From positions 62,001-126,000 of the forward strand of contig JAJXZT010000071.1 in the NCBI GenBank assembly GCA_021779935.1: a stretch of DNA of 64,000 nt. Reading direction: 5' to 3'. Shown here one piece after another: positions 44,184 to 53,446 of this stretch. The position numbers and the translations under genes are program-made. This DNA is from Acidobacteriota bacterium (GTDB lineage: Bacteria; Acidobacteriota; Terriglobia; Terriglobales; Acidobacteriaceae). How positions within the stretch are numbered: position 1 is the first letter of the stretch; each line of letters starts with the position of its first letter. Under the pieces are notes generated by a model. It did not search any database and was not told where the DNA came from. It saw only the letters and a list, made by a program, of their open reading frames with translations.

Positions 44184-44765
44184 TTACTTCCTGTCGAGTA
44201 GCGAGGATTGCGAGCCGCCGCCGAATCCGGTGGCCCCTCCTCCAATGGAAGATCCCGAAGTCGAAGTTGCACTTGAAACCGCGCCGGCCATCGGCTTTGT
44301 TTCAGGCTTTACGTCCGGCTTCTGGATGTCGATTGCGCCCTTGAAGAATGCGCCATCTTCGATCATGATGCGCTGCGTGAAAATGTCGCCGTTCAACACC
44401 GCCGACTTCTTCAGTTCGACTTTTTCTTTCGCTTGGATGTTGCCGTCTACTTTCCCGTGCACCACCACATCCTTCGCATGGACGTTCGCTCTTACGCGGC
44501 CATTCGGGCCCACGATGAGGCTGTGTCCCCGCAGCTCGATGTTTCCTTCCACCTCGCCGTCGAGGTAAAGATCTTCGCTGCCGGACAGTTCACCTTTTAT
44601 GACCACTGACTTGCCGATATGCGCCACGTCGGCTCGGAAGTTTTCCATTCTCGGTGTCTCCACTGGGCGAGTTTCTCTAACAGGGGGTGCAGCCGGAGTT
44701 ACTGTCGTCTGCGCTGGAACAGGCGACGCATAGGGTTTCTCTTCTTCTTTGCGCGATTTCCACAT
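44184..44765 (-). CDS. bactofilin (DUF583) cytoskeletal protein
   Basis: This 193-aa polymer-forming protein has a disordered Pro-rich N-terminus (about 1-45), a right-handed beta-helix core with repeated hydrophobic/Gly turns (SEDLYLDGEVEGNIELRGH and similar, about 48-150), and a Gly/Ser-rich C-terminal tail. Bactofilins form filaments that organise cell shape or cell-wall enzymes. GGGAG precedes the ATG. No peptidoglycan hydrolase gene is adjacent, unlike in some operons. Confidence 0.92.
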   Translation of the reverse strand: MWKSRKEEEKPYASPVPAQTTVTPAAPPVRETRPVETPRMENFRADVAHIGKSVVIKGELSGSEDLYLDGEVEGNIELRGHSLIVGPNGRVRANVHAKDVVVHGKVDGNIQAKEKVELKKSAVLNGDIFTQRIMIEDGAFFKGAIDIQKPDVKPETKPMAGAVSSATSTSGSSIGGGATGFGGGSQSSLLDRK

Positions 44766-45947: not shown

Positions 45948-47060
45948 TTATTGTCCGGCGCGAATTGTCTCCTTGCGCACTGTGAAGTGCTCAATCAGGT
46001 CTTCCCGCACGCGATAACCCGTGCCCGCCTCGTCGCTCACGGCAATCGTCCCCTTGGGCGACACCGTCACTTCCGGCTCAATGATGTCTTCCTTCCAGTA
46101 GCGCTTTGATGCCGACACATCGCCCGGCAGGCTGAAATTTTCCAGCGTCGACATCGCGATGTTGTGCGCGCGTCCAATGCCTGACTCCAGCATCCCGCCG
46201 CACCAGTTCGGAATCCCTGCCTCACGGCACACCGCCTCCACCTTCTTCGCTTCCGTGAACCCGCCCACGCGTCCCAGCTTAATGTTGAGGATGCGGCATG
46301 CCTTTGCTTGTGCCGCCGCTGCTGCATCCCGCCCGTGAAGAATCGATTCATCCAGGCACAGCGCCGTCTTCAGCTTGCTCTGCAATATTGCGTGCGCGGC
46401 AATGTCGTCGTTCCATAGCGGCTGTTCGATCATCAGCAGTTTGAACTCGTCGAACTTCTTCAGATGCTCCACGTCATTCAGCGTATACGCCGAGTTCGCG
46501 TCGCAACTCAGCGTGATCTCCGGCCAACGCCCGCGGATCGCCCGCAGTATCTCCACATCCCATCCCGGCTTCACCTTCACCTTGATCCGCTGATATCCCG
46601 CCGCCAGTTCCGTCTCGATCTTCTCCAGCAGTTGCGCCGGCGAATCCTGGATTCCGATCGACACTCCGCAGCTCAATTCCCTGCGGGTTCCGCCCAGCAT
46701 CTTCCATAGCGGCATTTTCCGCCGGAGCGCCTCCGCGTCCCACACTGCGCTCTCCACCGCCGCCTTCGCCATCCTGTGCCCGCGCACCCGGTCGAACATC
46801 GGCGCCACCGTCTCGTGATCCACGTTTTTTCCCAGCACCGCTGGCCCAAGGTATCCGCGAATTACGTACCACGCCGTGTCGATCGACTCCTCGTTGTAGA
46901 ACGGATGCTCTCCCGCCGTGCACTCGCCCCAGCCATTCAGTCCGTCGCTGTGGACCGTCACCAGCAGGATGCGCCGTTCCGTGGTACGTCCAAAACTGGT
47001 CTCAAAAAAGTGAACCAGCGGCATGCGAATTTCCCGGATCGTGATTGCTTCAATATTCAT
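45948..47060 (-). CDS. enolase-superfamily N-acylamino acid racemase / o-succinylbenzoate synthase (MenC-like)
   Basis: The 370-aa protein has the complete muconate-lactonizing subgroup active site: the KxK pair Lys160/Lys162 in RIKVKVKPGWD, metal ligands Asp187 (SCDANSAY), Glu212 (IEQP) and Asp237 (CLDES), and the opposing Lys261 (IKLGRVGG). The GWD motif and gene context favour N-succinylamino acid racemase over menaquinone synthesis: the next gene upstream is a GNAT acyltransferase, and no men genes are present. I chose the ATG at 47060; longer frames to 47102 overlap the GNAT gene end. Confidence 0.88.
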   Translation of the reverse strand: MNIEAITIREIRMPLVHFFETSFGRTTERRILLVTVHSDGLNGWGECTAGEHPFYNEESIDTAWYVIRGYLGPAVLGKNVDHETVAPMFDRVRGHRMAKAAVESAVWDAEALRRKMPLWKMLGGTRRELSCGVSIGIQDSPAQLLEKIETELAAGYQRIKVKVKPGWDVEILRAIRGRWPEITLSCDANSAYTLNDVEHLKKFDEFKLLMIEQPLWNDDIAAHAILQSKLKTALCLDESILHGRDAAAAAQAKACRILNIKLGRVGGFTEAKKVEAVCREAGIPNWCGGMLESGIGRAHNIAMSTLENFSLPGDVSASKRYWKEDIIEPEVTVSPKGTIAVSDEAGTGYRVREDLIEHFTVRKETIRAGQ

Positions 47061-47077
47061 AATTGCAAATCCATTCT

Positions 47078-47857
47078 TTAGTAATTCCAGCTTTCGTCCC
47101 ACGTCCCCAGCAGGAATCTTCCATTCCCGTGCTTGTCCCGCTCGTATCCCACCACGCTCAGCCCTGCTGTAAAGTGTTTCTGAAACAGCTCCCGGTTTTT
47201 CGATTGCAGCTCTGCCGCTCGTGCGCGTGTCGCTTCATTCGCTTTCCACGTCGCAATTTCTGCGGGCACTTCAATCGTCTCCGTCGCGGACGCCTTCGGT
47301 GTGTGCCCCGTCTCCAGCAGCGTTTGCACGCGCTTCGACTTCAGCCACCACTCCGCCGTTAACCGGTCACTCGGCAACCCGCCCTGCAATGGCGAACTCG
47401 TGATGCCGTACTGGTTCACCGTGTAGCGGCGCGTGATTGCGCCCAGCTTCTCGATGTTCAGAAATGCGTTCTTGATCTCCAGCGGATCGAACGTCCACTC
47501 CATCAGCTCCAGCCCCATCTCCAGGCAGATGTCGCGCTGAAAAAGCTTCATTGCCCGTCCCAATCCTGTGTTGCGATGTGCCGGCCGTACGGCCAGCATG
47601 TGCGAATGCAGGTAAGGATGCCCGTTCCGATAGCCCGGAATTCCGTATGCGAATCCCGCCAGTTCGTTTCCGTCCCACGCGCCAATCACGTGCCCGCCGA
47701 TCTTCTCTCCAACTACAAACAGCCGCACCGGCACCAGTTCGATATCGACAAAATTCCAGACATCTTTCTGTAGTTGCAGCACCTGCCGGAATTCGCCCAC
47801 CGTGTGGCAGGTGCGCAGGACGTATTTGCCGTACTGCTTTTCGGCGTGGATACCCAA
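47078..47857 (-). CDS. GNAT family acyltransferase (COG3375-like)
   Basis: The 259-aa protein carries a GNAT core with acyl-CoA motif VRPAHRNTGLGRAMKLF, followed by conserved WTFDPLEIKNAFLNIEKLG, typical of the COG3375 group. Those proteins are found beside N-acylamino acid racemases. In Geobacillus kaustophilus such a pair plus a desuccinylase converts D- to L-amino acids through N-succinyl intermediates. The start is a TTG at 47857 with an AGGAGAGGAAG ribosome site. The expected hydrolase is not in this window. Confidence 0.85.
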   Translation of the reverse strand: MGIHAEKQYGKYVLRTCHTVGEFRQVLQLQKDVWNFVDIELVPVRLFVVGEKIGGHVIGAWDGNELAGFAYGIPGYRNGHPYLHSHMLAVRPAHRNTGLGRAMKLFQRDICLEMGLELMEWTFDPLEIKNAFLNIEKLGAITRRYTVNQYGITSSPLQGGLPSDRLTAEWWLKSKRVQTLLETGHTPKASATETIEVPAEIATWKANEATRARAAELQSKNRELFQKHFTAGLSVVGYERDKHGNGRFLLGTWDESWNY

Positions 47858-47868
47858 GGCTTCCTCTC

Positions 47869-48765
47869 CTATTCGGCCGGTCTTTCTTTCCGCTTCGACT
47901 GCTGCCAGTGTGCTTCCATCTCGTCCAGTGAAGCCTCTTCCGGCGTCTTTCCCTCTTCGCGCAGCTTTTCTTCCACGTACTCAAATCGTCTGCGGAATTT
48001 CCTGTTCGTATTGCGCAGTGCCGACTCCGGGTCCACGTTCAGATACCGCGCAATATTCACCAGCACGAACAGCAGGTCCCCGACTTCGTCCTGCAATCGC
48101 GCCTTCAACTCTTCTGGAGTATTGTCTTCCCGCGCTCCCGCCACGCCTCGTCCCACCGGTTGCGGTCCCGGCGGCGGAATCTGGTCAACCTCGTGCCGCA
48201 GCTCTTCCGTCTCTTCCCGCAGCTTGTCGAACAGTCCATCCATGTTCGGCCAGTCGAAGCCCACTTGCGCCGCGCGATTGCTCAGCTTCAAGCCTTCCAG
48301 CAGCGCGGGCATCGCCGTCGACACCTTCGCCAGCATTGATTTTGGCTTCTCCGGCGGTGGTTCTCCGTTTTCTGCTGCTTTCGCCGACTTCTCCTGATCC
48401 TTGATCGCTTCCCAGTTGCGCAGCACTTCTCTTGACGTATCGGCCTTCACGTCGCCAAACACGTGCGGATGCCTCCGCACCAGCTTGTCGCTCAGCCGGT
48501 CCAGCACGTCGTCGATCGCGAAGTGCCCTTCTTCCTTCGCCATCTCCGCGTAGAAGAGCACTTGCAGCAGCAGGTCGCCGAGTTCCCCTGGCAGTTCGTC
48601 CCAGTCGCGATTATCAATCGCTTCCAGCACCTCGTAGGTTTCCTCAAGCGTGTATTGTTTGATTGTGTCGAAGGTTTGTTCGCGGTCCCACGGACATCCG
48701 CCGGGGGCGCGCAGCCGGGCCATGATTGCCACGGCCCGTTCGAATCGATCTCCGGTCTCAGGCAT
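47869..48765 (-). CDS. mazG: nucleoside triphosphate pyrophosphohydrolase MazG
   Basis: MazG hydrolyses NTPs to NMP and pyrophosphate, cleaning damaged nucleotides and lowering ppGpp signals. The 298-aa protein has the tandem MazG domains: CPWDREQTFDTIKQYTLEE and ELGDLLLQVLFYAE in the first (about 15-125), and a second EVGDLLFVLVNIARY (about 215-280). It is longer at the C-terminus than E. coli MazG. It lies within a run of minus-strand genes with short gaps to the GDPD gene (57) and the GNAT gene (11). Confidence 0.95.
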   Translation of the reverse strand: MPETGDRFERAVAIMARLRAPGGCPWDREQTFDTIKQYTLEETYEVLEAIDNRDWDELPGELGDLLLQVLFYAEMAKEEGHFAIDDVLDRLSDKLVRRHPHVFGDVKADTSREVLRNWEAIKDQEKSAKAAENGEPPPEKPKSMLAKVSTAMPALLEGLKLSNRAAQVGFDWPNMDGLFDKLREETEELRHEVDQIPPPGPQPVGRGVAGAREDNTPEELKARLQDEVGDLLFVLVNIARYLNVDPESALRNTNRKFRRRFEYVEEKLREEGKTPEEASLDEMEAHWQQSKRKERPAE

Positions 48766-49919: not shown

Positions 49920-51521
49920 TCAGATTCGCAGCAGTTGATGTCCCGGGCAATGTTGCGCCGCAACCTCAACAAATCGCTCCAGCAGTTCCGGTCCATGCAT
50001 GGCCAGAAAGTAGACTCCGGCGATCGTCCGCTCCTGTAACCCCTTGTCGGGAAACAGAAACCCTTCAATCTCCATCGCCTCCATGCAGATACGTTCGTTC
50101 CGCCGCAGTTCCGCCCGCGCCGCGCGCTTTCCCAGCCGCGAAACCTGGAACAGCATCTTCTTGCGCGCCTTGTCCGCCGACTCCACCAGTGTCGGGTCCA
50201 GCTCACTCAGCTCCTTTTGCAACCGCGCCAGCGTCTTTTCTACCGTCTGCGCCGCATCTTCGAAGCTCTGTTGTGTCGACGGCGGCAATACTTTTCGCGC
50301 CAGCGTTTCGCACAGGCATTCTGTTCCGTGAAACAGGTCCGGCAGTTGAATGCCGTACCGGTGCAGCAGCCGCTCCATCCGCGAGTTGATCACCGTCAGG
50401 CTCAGTCGCGGCAGCACCGGCGTTACCCGCCCCAGCAGCTTCTGGTACACCGTCGCCACCTGCGCAAAGTACGCAATCTCCGCCGGTCCGCCGAAGTACG
50501 CCACTGTCGGCAGCAGGTAATCCTGCACCAGTGGACGCAGCAATACGTTCGGGCTGTAGAGGTCGGGGCGCTCTGCAATGCTCTTCAGTATCTCCGCCCG
50601 TGAAACCGCCCGTGCACCGATCATGAATCCGCCGTCAGCCAGGTGGAGCACCGTGCGCTCTCCGCCTTCCAGCGTGAACAGCGTGGTTGAAGCCGGCGTC
50701 ACCTTCACCTGCTCGTGATATCCGCGCTTGTGGAGTTCCTGACCGCGGTGCAGCAGCGCCGCGTCGATCTCTTCCGCCCTCTCCGCCGCCTGCAACAGCA
50801 GCGGCCCCGCCACTGCGTGCAACCCCGGGTCCAGCGGATCGATGAGGATCAATCCAGTCTTGTGGAACAGCCGCGAAAACAGTTTCGCGAATGCGCTGCC
50901 AAACGTCTCTCCTTCTCGATAGCTTTCCAGCAGCGCCTGCGTCGCATCCGACTCTCCCAGCAGATCCGCCGCCTCGCGCGCCAGCGCCTCTATCTCCGCC
51001 GGAAAACGCACATCGCCCACCGGCGAATTCGTCCGCCCTCGTGTCGTCGACGCGAAGTGTTTCAGGTCCCCCGTGCGCTCCGGCACAATCGATTCGTTCA
51101 CTTCCGGCAGGTCGTGATCTTCCGTCGCCAGCCAGAACACCGGTACCGCCTCGATCCCTTTCGCCGTCAGTTCCCGCGCCAGTTGTATCGCCGAGGCCGC
51201 TTTCAACAGCGAGTACAGCGGTCCGCCAAATAATCCCACCTGTTGCCCGCTCACCACCGCAACTGCACCGGCCCGAAAGTGTTCTATCGCTTGGAGTGTC
51301 GCGTCTCCAGCGCCCCAGAGCCGGTTTTGCCGCAATAGAATCTCGGCCACTTGTTCCCGGCGTTCTGCCGGATATGCAAGTTCCCGTGCATATTTGGCAA
51401 TCGCTTGTGGTGTCGGCGGATGCGGATAGAAATCGGCTACTTGCGGAATGTGCCCAAGATAATCCTGGAACAGCTTAGACGAATGCGGAATTGCGGTAAT
51501 AGGAATGCAGTCAAAGCTCAC
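49920..51521 (-). CDS. bshC: bacillithiol biosynthesis cysteine-adding enzyme BshC
   Basis: BshC adds cysteine to glucosaminyl-malate in the last step of bacillithiol synthesis. The 533-aa protein has a typical start (IPITAIPHSSKLFQDYL), the Rossmann-like VVSGQQVGLFGGPLYS, and WLATEDHDLPEVN; all are diagnostic of the family. I favour the GTG at 51521 with GGGGAT upstream; a TTG at 51548 would add nine residues. bshA and bshB are not in the window. It heads a six-gene minus-strand run. Confidence 0.95.
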   Translation of the reverse strand: MSFDCIPITAIPHSSKLFQDYLGHIPQVADFYPHPPTPQAIAKYARELAYPAERREQVAEILLRQNRLWGAGDATLQAIEHFRAGAVAVVSGQQVGLFGGPLYSLLKAASAIQLARELTAKGIEAVPVFWLATEDHDLPEVNESIVPERTGDLKHFASTTRGRTNSPVGDVRFPAEIEALAREAADLLGESDATQALLESYREGETFGSAFAKLFSRLFHKTGLILIDPLDPGLHAVAGPLLLQAAERAEEIDAALLHRGQELHKRGYHEQVKVTPASTTLFTLEGGERTVLHLADGGFMIGARAVSRAEILKSIAERPDLYSPNVLLRPLVQDYLLPTVAYFGGPAEIAYFAQVATVYQKLLGRVTPVLPRLSLTVINSRMERLLHRYGIQLPDLFHGTECLCETLARKVLPPSTQQSFEDAAQTVEKTLARLQKELSELDPTLVESADKARKKMLFQVSRLGKRAARAELRRNERICMEAMEIEGFLFPDKGLQERTIAGVYFLAMHGPELLERFVEVAAQHCPGHQLLRI

Positions 51522-51548
51522 AGGGTTATCCCCGAATAGAAACGACAA

Positions 51549-52293: not shown

Positions 52294-52378
52294 TCTAATC
52301 TTATTTATAATCAATAGTTTACAGACACTAAAATCTCATGTGCCGTATACGTACCAACACTTACGTAGGAGCCGGTAC

Positions 52379-53446
52379 ATGCTCAAGACGTATCGCCGTC
52401 ATCTCGCGAGCTGTAGACACAAAAATAAAGGCCGCGATTTTCTACGTTGTTCCTGCCCGATCTGGGTAGACGGAACCCTGAATGGCCGTCGCATTCGCCA
52501 ATCTCTCGACACTGCAAACCTCCAGATCGCCGCTGAGAAGGTACTGGAACTGGAGGCGAACAACGGCGAGAACAAGCAGGAAGAGACGAGTGTCGATAAC
52601 GCCGTCGATTCATTTCTTGCAGCCAACAAACATCTATCAAGCATCCAGACCTACAAACAGGTTTTGCTTCCGTTCAAACGCTTCTGTCTCGGCAGGTCCA
52701 TTTCGAAAATCCGCGCAGTTACACTCGCAGACCTGTACGCATTTCGTGACACATGGAATTGTTCGGCGTTGACCACCGGCAAACGCATTGAGCCCCTTCG
52801 CACGTTTTTCCGTTTCTGTGAAGATCACGAATGGATCGACCGAAACTGCGCGACAAAACTCAAGAAGCCCCCCGTCAAGGAGCCTCCCGTTGTTCCCTTC
52901 ACCGAGGAGCAGTGGACGGCATTACTTGAAGCTGTCGAACAATACCCGCAGAAGAACTCTTTCGGCTACGACAATCGCGCCCGACTGAAAGCGTTTCTTT
53001 TGACACTTCGGTATAGCGGTCTCCGAATCAGCGACGTCGTGAAATTAGAGAAAACCGCGATCTCAAAGGACGGAAAGCTCACCCTGAGAACATCCAAGGT
53101 CGGCGTTCAGGTCCGGCATCCCCTTCCGAAATTTGTGCTCGACTCCCTCGTGAATATCGGGAATGATCGATATTTCTTTTGGAGTGGTCAGGGCAAATTG
53201 AAATCCGCCGTCGGTGACTGGCAGCGGTCAATTCGGAAACTGATGAAGGACGCCAATATCAAAGGACACCCACACATGTTCAGGCACACGCTTGCAGTGG
53301 AACTACTGAACAAGGGAGTGAACATCGAGCACGTTGCAGCCATCCTCGGCAATTCTCCAGAAGTCTGTCGGCGGCACTACGCTCCGTGGGAAGCAACGCG
53401 GCAGAGGGCACTGGAAGACGCACTCCGACAAGTCTGGGCGCAATAG
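52379..53446 (+). CDS. tyrosine-type site-specific integrase
   Basis: This 355-aa recombinase has an N-terminal Cys-rich zinc-like segment (CRHKNKGRDFLRCSCPIW, 12-29), a SAM-like core-binding domain (about 70-165) and a catalytic domain. Catalytic residues are Arg216 (YSGLRISD), Lys240 (TSKVG), His299/Arg302 (HMFRH) and Tyr334 (RRHYAPW). The position of the second His (LGH in lambda-type enzymes) reads LGN. The ATG at 52379 has AGGAG seven bases upstream. Its location directly after ssrA shows it drives integration at the tmRNA 3' end. A terminator follows. Confidence 0.95.
   Translation: MLKTYRRHLASCRHKNKGRDFLRCSCPIWVDGTLNGRRIRQSLDTANLQIAAEKVLELEANNGENKQEETSVDNAVDSFLAANKHLSSIQTYKQVLLPFKRFCLGRSISKIRAVTLADLYAFRDTWNCSALTTGKRIEPLRTFFRFCEDHEWIDRNCATKLKKPPVKEPPVVPFTEEQWTALLEAVEQYPQKNSFGYDNRARLKAFLLTLRYSGLRISDVVKLEKTAISKDGKLTLRTSKVGVQVRHPLPKFVLDSLVNIGNDRYFFWSGQGKLKSAVGDWQRSIRKLMKDANIKGHPHMFRHTLAVELLNKGVNIEHVAAILGNSPEVCRRHYAPWEATRQRALEDALRQVWAQ

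Follow-up and report, generated by a model that had tools for sequence, protein, structure and literature searches.

The 64,000-nucleotide stretch of soil acidobacterial DNA analysed here as a whole (hereafter the window; contig JAJXZT010000071.1 of assembly GCA_021779935.1) carries a gene for a GNAT-family protein directly before a gene for an enzyme of the enolase superfamily. The pair raises the question of whether the second protein works as a racemase of N-acylated amino acids or as an o-succinylbenzoate synthase (OSBS, MenC) of menaquinone synthesis. For enzymes of this kind it has been at issue, ever since the reassignment of the Amycolatopsis enzyme, whether racemisation is their proper function or a by-product of making menaquinone, going by excerpts of the paper concerned (PMC4215206). 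Our answer, to which we assign a probability of roughly 0.77, is that the two genes provide the first two steps of a Geobacillus-type N-acylamino acid racemisation pathway, with the M20 hydrolase encoded elsewhere in the genome, and that they have no role in menaquinone synthesis.

A preliminary description of this DNA had placed a GNAT acyltransferase next to an N-acylamino acid racemase, and both genes are found there, on the minus strand with the GNAT gene first (Table 1). The order along that strand is mazG, GNAT, racemase, and since the intergenic gaps are only 11 bp and 17 bp the three genes look like one operon. MazG is not thought to be a member of the pathway; a MazG match occurs somewhere within 77 of the 80 named acidobacterial GNAT loci that match best. 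The racemase reading frame as listed begins at GTG 47102, and because the best NAAAR structures align to this longer query only from residue 15–16 the start was moved to the ATG given in Table 1. For the GNAT, homology mostly begins at residue 11–14, counted from TTG 47857. Elsewhere in the window are a bactofilin gene (44184–44765; Pfam PF04519, 5.1e-28), a gene for BshC, the bacillithiol cysteine-adding enzyme (49920–51548; TIGR03998, 453.8 bits), and a 368-aa frame (52340–53446) whose translation gives the impression of a tyrosine recombinase/integrase.

Table 1. Features of the mazG-GNAT-racemase locus in window coordinates; rows are those of the racemase alignment
Feature	Coordinates	Strand	Basis or remark
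MazG nucleotide pyrophosphohydrolase	47869..48765	-	Pfam MazG 2.2e-38; upstream neighbour in the apparent operon
GNAT-family N-acyltransferase (proposed), 259 aa from TTG 47857	47078..47857	-	Pfam, model fold; start uncertain
RNTGLG (R-x-x-G-x-G), presumed acyl-CoA binding motif, GNAT residues 95-100	47558..47575	-	read from sequence
Racemase (predicted), 370 aa from ATG 47060	45948..47060	-	TIGR01928, PDB relatives
KxK, K160 and K162	46575..46583	-	identical in 58/58 rows; aligns with KLK of 1sja
D187	46500..46502	-	identical in 58/58 rows
E212	46425..46427	-	identical in 58/58 rows
D237	46350..46352	-	identical in 58/58 rows
K261	46278..46280	-	58/58 rows; aligns with K of NIKPGRVGG in 1sja
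R264	46269..46271	-	58/58 rows; aligns with 1sja arginine that reads Q in PDB 7s8w

The racemase contains both enolase-superfamily domains of Pfam (MR_MLE_C 2.8e-39, MR_MLE_N 1.6e-13) and passes the NCBIfam OSBS equivalog model TIGR01928, which would name it menC, with 318 bits (cut-off 200.65). Its closest solved relatives are 1sja (E 4.4e-96), 2zc8 and 1r0m, all of the NSAR/OSBS (NAAAR) type and all aligned over the full length; we take these to be the Amycolatopsis NAAAR and the enzymes of Thermus and Deinococcus radiodurans, respectively. With 1sja it shares the KxK motif, the metal ligands, the second lysine and the arginine that is changed in 7s8w. We take K160 and K162 to be the catalytic KxK, D187, E212 and D237 the metal ligands and K261 the second catalytic lysine, and all six are identical in every one of the 58 aligned racemases, which bears out the earlier claim of a complete active site. 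R264 presumably corresponds to R266 of the Amycolatopsis enzyme, a position that we understand to bear on racemase specificity. Domains, family model and active-site residues agree in placing the protein, as judged from its sequence, in the NSAR/OSBS subfamily of the enolase superfamily, and its predicted activity is most likely that of an N-acylamino acid racemase. An L-Ala-D/L-Glu (dipeptide) epimerase was considered and rejected, the scores being 81.5 bits against a cut-off of 343 (NF011708) and 77 against 500 (NF041118).

The upstream protein gives a Pfam Acetyltransf_1 match above cut-off (6e-7), and searches returned no NCBIfam model at E 0.01; comparison of its sequence with solved structures gave nothing below E 0.05. 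Within the presumed acyl-CoA binding motif, G98 is nearly invariant and G100 invariant in an alignment of 29 sequences, in which W121, T122, P125, N130, N134, R165 and W170 are among the other invariant positions. An AlphaFold model made from the same alignment (mean pLDDT 94.3, pTM 0.90) superposes on GNAT acetyltransferases over residues 10–183 when compared with Foldseek and VIA-align (best Z 16.7, 148 residues, rmsd 1.6), a comparison that scarcely covers residues beyond about 183. The modelled fold and the R-x-x-G-x-G motif together argue for membership of the GNAT family; model and superpositions give the general GNAT fold only, with no pointer to the acyl-CoA used. We propose that the protein is an acyl-CoA:D-amino acid N-acyltransferase, and we take COG3375 to be the name of its family. 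The same genome (denoted G000) encodes a further GNAT of this family, with about 40% identity, at G000:C9:35971-36693 (L062:9454-10206, plus strand), with no racemase adjoining; it shares its contig with the M20 gene discussed below, about 29 kb away.

How widely the two genes travel together was assessed in a phylum sample of 297 genomes, with the GNAT counted at E <= 0.001, a cut-off that admits some weak matches, and the racemase at E <= 1e-30. Genes were placed by tblastn, as calling of the longest frame is poor in GC-rich genomes and lost GNAT and racemase genes to antisense frames. On these terms the GNAT is present in 160 genomes and the racemase in 158, with both in 146, the GNAT only in 14 and the racemase only in 12 (Fisher p 6.5e-52, uncorrected for ancestry). 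Distances were taken from the matches listed, which cover 138 of the 160 GNAT genomes and 144 of the 158 racemase genomes and so leave 129 with both. Among these listed matches the two genes lie within 1.5 kb of each other in 79 of the 129 genomes, from 24 family codes; every one of the 79 close pairs is on the same strand and the GNAT is upstream in 77, while the remaining 50 genomes have the genes on the same contig but farther apart (14) or on different contigs (36). Set against a chance expectation of about 0.00075 per genome for a random pair within 1.5 kb, this adjacency is far beyond chance.

The best 80 of the named GNAT matches listed are all acidobacterial, with several from Candidatus Sulfotelmatobacter near the top, and have a racemase on the same strand in 75 loci and within 1.5 kb in 74. 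Three of the five named loci with no racemase (L116, L143, L144) stop right after the GNAT, and the other two (L117, L174) have about 6 kb of downstream sequence with no racemase match in it. Glycosyltransferase genes stand directly before the GNAT or the racemase at L075, L097 and L225 (genomes G178, G060 and G162). Apart from the GNAT, M20 and MazG genes, neighbours such as glycosyltransferases, a HEAT-cyclophilin protein and a short-chain dehydrogenase were dropped as candidate partners, each being found at few loci.

That the third enzyme, a desuccinylase, is absent from this stretch was also part of the preliminary description, and none of the 14 M20-family matches in the organism's own genome lies on the window's contig (C5). 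The same description suggested looking for an M20-type deacylase elsewhere, and such a search does lead to a candidate. Genomes G086, G197 and G075, which share a family code, have immediately after the racemase a protein from a single cluster, of which the member scanned is an M20, and a fourth genome of that family (G025) has the same racemase-then-M20 arrangement. The best match to these racemase-adjoining M20s in the own genome is G000:C9:5745-6935, at 43–46% identity. Its identity to M20s from clusters in Streptomyces and Arthrobacter is 42–44%, and it gives no match at E 1e-3 to Bacillales M20s, which are TIGR01891 amidohydrolases as judged from the Lysinibacillus member scanned. Its best NCBIfam models are those for M20 hydrolase and glutamate carboxypeptidase, and it also matches ArgE/DapE models, all below their cut-offs. 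With relatives linked to racemases both elsewhere in the Acidobacteriota and in these Streptomyces and Arthrobacter clusters, this gene is the best candidate for the partner deacylase, unlinked from the GNAT-racemase pair.

Counted as one subfamily at E <= 1e-40, a count that other deacylases would escape, M20s of the candidate type occur in 144 of the 297 genomes, 130 of which have the racemase (Fisher p 1e-38, again uncorrected for ancestry). They are missing from 28 of the 158 racemase genomes, the GNAT is missing from 12, and all three genes are present in 126 of the 297. Contiguous same-strand triads exist in at least six acidobacterial genomes, a lower bound as triads were looked for in hand-picked same-contig pairs, and come in two gene orders: racemase-M20-GNAT (G176, G055, G192 and G098, the racemase of the last being cut by the contig end) and M20-GNAT-racemase (G016, G102). 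A further genome, G125, has the three genes within 4 kb on mixed strands.

From these components we infer a pathway, including the reaction of each enzyme, the acyl group, the range of amino acids, the stereochemistry and the net direction. The GNAT would N-acylate a D-amino acid, most likely by succinyl transfer from succinyl-CoA. The racemase would then interconvert the N-acyl-D- and N-acyl-L-amino acids by 1,1-proton transfer between two lysines, with K160/K162 on one face, K261 on the other and D187, E212 and D237 holding the metal; two-lysine racemase chemistry is described in the excerpted text of PMC8142540. The M20 hydrolase, for which G000:C9:5745-6935 is the best candidate, would remove the acyl group from the L-form and so pull the flow from D to L at a cost of one acyl-CoA.

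The same three enzymes could instead handle acetyl or another acyl group in an N-acetylamino acid racemisation pathway, to which we give some limited probability. The Amycolatopsis NAAAR acts on N-acetyl-methionine (PMC8142540, in excerpt), the GNAT fold matches acetyltransferases, and the candidate M20 resembles glutamate carboxypeptidase and ArgE/DapE models, below their cut-offs, rather than the Bacillales M20s, to which it shows no match at E 1e-3; on the other side, the partial accounts used here of the enzyme family and of the Geobacillus pathway give N-succinyl compounds as the substrates. We think it improbable that the racemase and M20 act on soil-derived N-acylamino acids or dipeptide-like compounds while the GNAT serves elsewhere, for example in detoxifying D-amino acids with no net conversion. 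Such a division of labour would suit the 50 of 129 genomes in which, among the matches listed, the GNAT and the racemase are separated by over 1.5 kb or lie on separate contigs, as well as the transporters for peptides or amino acids and the serine hydrolases beside named clusters, but it sits poorly with the uniform strand of the 79 close pairs, their spread over 24 family codes (again among listed matches) and the statistical association of the three genes with one another.

The passing score on the OSBS equivalog model invites the further explanation that the racemase is the MenC of classical menaquinone synthesis, and the occurrence of MenD in 18 of the 158 racemase genomes adds to it. Against this stands the content of the own genome (4.49 Mb, 99% complete), in which the search for the classical pathway consisted of MenD and MenB and found neither over cut-off: the best MenD match scores 59.3 bits against 244.2 and the best MenB match 167.2 against 342.7. 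Enzymes of the futalosine route are present within 9 kb of a single contig: two proteins of the MqnA/MqnD family, which score 261 and 187.2 bits (cut-off 26), and MqnC at 485.6 bits (cut-off 428.1). An OSBS would thus have no evident pathway to serve here, and as the organism appears to make its menaquinone by the futalosine route the racemase would be left with no part in it. In the wider phylum, 140 of the 158 racemase genomes have no MenD at E <= 1e-40, and a survey of five Acidobacteria lists MenC in four, MenF and MenB in none and MqnA/C/D in all five (Table 1 of PMC3914697, the part used here). OSBS activity with complementation of menC had been named beforehand as the result that would overturn the racemase reading; on genome content this case came out unlikely, the OSBS role in this genome was set aside on the lack of MenD and MenB matches over cut-off, and we regard the MenC assignment as highly improbable for this protein. 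The automatic menC label would mislead here.

Some relatives may differ from the window's organism in this respect. MenD (E <= 1e-40) is found in 27 of the 297 genomes, of which 18 also have the racemase; 12 of these 18 come from one family, 17 have no M20 of the candidate type and four no GNAT, and among the 140 racemase genomes with no MenD the M20 type is present in 129. Twelve MenD neighbourhoods were searched with a racemase-family profile, which a divergent MenC may escape and for which some stretches were shortened by contig ends: the ten from racemase genomes contained no other MenC-like frame, and the two from genomes lacking this racemase did contain one. The racemases of the MenD-bearing relatives may therefore well be OSBS enzymes. 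One of the genomes searched in this way, G280, has a second match on another contig, 26% identical, which may be its MenC. No men gene was among ten frames chosen from the surroundings of racemases, some of them in MenD-less genomes, so that it is MenD itself that points to an OSBS role in these relatives.

A tree of 58 racemases, seven from named organisms and with G001 left out because its frame came out at 883 aa, was labelled by hand from the GNAT, MenD and M20 searches. The MenD label needs at least five changes on this tree, and the window's racemase falls in a group of 19 rows (support 90/99) with no MenD genome inside. A tree-corrected test of MenD against M20 comprised five pairs, three opposite, none the same and two with no difference (p 0.25), and with so few pairs the pattern of OSBS/NSAR switching is suggestive only. 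Our broader reading, held at slightly under even odds, is that about half of the sampled Acidobacteriota possess the pathway of GNAT, racemase and glutamate-carboxypeptidase-like M20 with a dedicated NSAR, and that natural switches between OSBS and NSAR have occurred repeatedly in the phylum; as part of it, the racemase would be a dedicated NSAR rather than a promiscuous MenC because the pathway genomes mostly have no MenD. NSAR and MenD contexts alternate within this one phylum. The many genomes that keep racemase, acyltransferase and deacylase with no MenD make a racemase job likelier there, and their MenD-bearing relatives offer ready comparisons. A literature search, mostly outside subscription papers, found no published activity for a pathway member in this phylum, no on-topic paper about a pathway for N-acyl D-amino acids in Acidobacteriota and nothing under COG3375.

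Several known systems can be set beside the one proposed. In the Geobacillus kaustophilus N-succinylamino acid racemase pathway, which Sakai et al. reportedly defined in 2006 (Biochemistry 45:4455), D-amino acids are said to be converted irreversibly to L-amino acids. As in the window, the GNAT and NSAR genes are said to adjoin there, with an M20 deacylase as third partner, a likeness that rests on other Bacillales clusters and on the pathway as generally described. The differences are that the M20 here is unlinked and belongs to another M20 subfamily than those of the Bacillales clusters compared, and that MenD and MenB are not over cut-off. The match to this pathway put forward in the preliminary description gains support from the GNAT-racemase pair in 24 family codes (among the matches listed) and from M20-GNAT-menC clusters on named plasmids of Lysinibacillus (NZ_CP130332) and Streptomyces (NZ_CP108083). 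On an Arthrobacter plasmid (NZ_CP012477) the M20 is about 3.4 kb upstream of GNAT-menC. The GNATs of these three clusters are 33–39% and the racemases 44–47% identical to those of the window, and the clusters hold all three gene families, whereas the window has the GNAT and racemase genes alone, apparently forming an operon with mazG. Other arrangements also occur: an amidohydrolase upstream of GNAT-menC on a Priestia plasmid, M20-menC with no GNAT on a Cytobacillus plasmid, menC and GNAT separated by two genes in Deinococcus radiodurans, and, in Sulfitobacter, an amino acid ABC transporter followed by menC and GNAT. Plasmid CP031730 (L185), labelled Stenotrophomonas rhizophila, agrees over 17 kb with the Lysinibacillus fusiformis plasmid NZ_CP130332 (L183) in gene order and nearly in spacing, and its species label looks wrong.

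The DgcN-DgcA D-glutamate pathway follows the same logic, in that a D-amino acid is acylated and then racemised by an enolase-superfamily enzyme (N-acetyl-D-Glu racemase), but the window's racemase scores 120.3 bits against the DgcA cut-off of 400 (NF042940) and was rejected as a DgcA. A separate enolase-superfamily protein of the own genome (L004, G000:C43:64456-65043) resembles DgcA or an L-Ala-D/L-Glu epimerase over a domain stretch only and below cut-offs; that stretch matches DgcA better than the window's racemase does, also below cut-off. The Amycolatopsis enzyme is described in excerpts of PMC4215206 as physiologically an OSBS, whereas the genome of the window has neither MenD nor MenB over cut-off. 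The kind of system is already known; to it are added this lack of MenD and MenB matches over cut-off, a candidate deacylase and a phylum-wide distribution.
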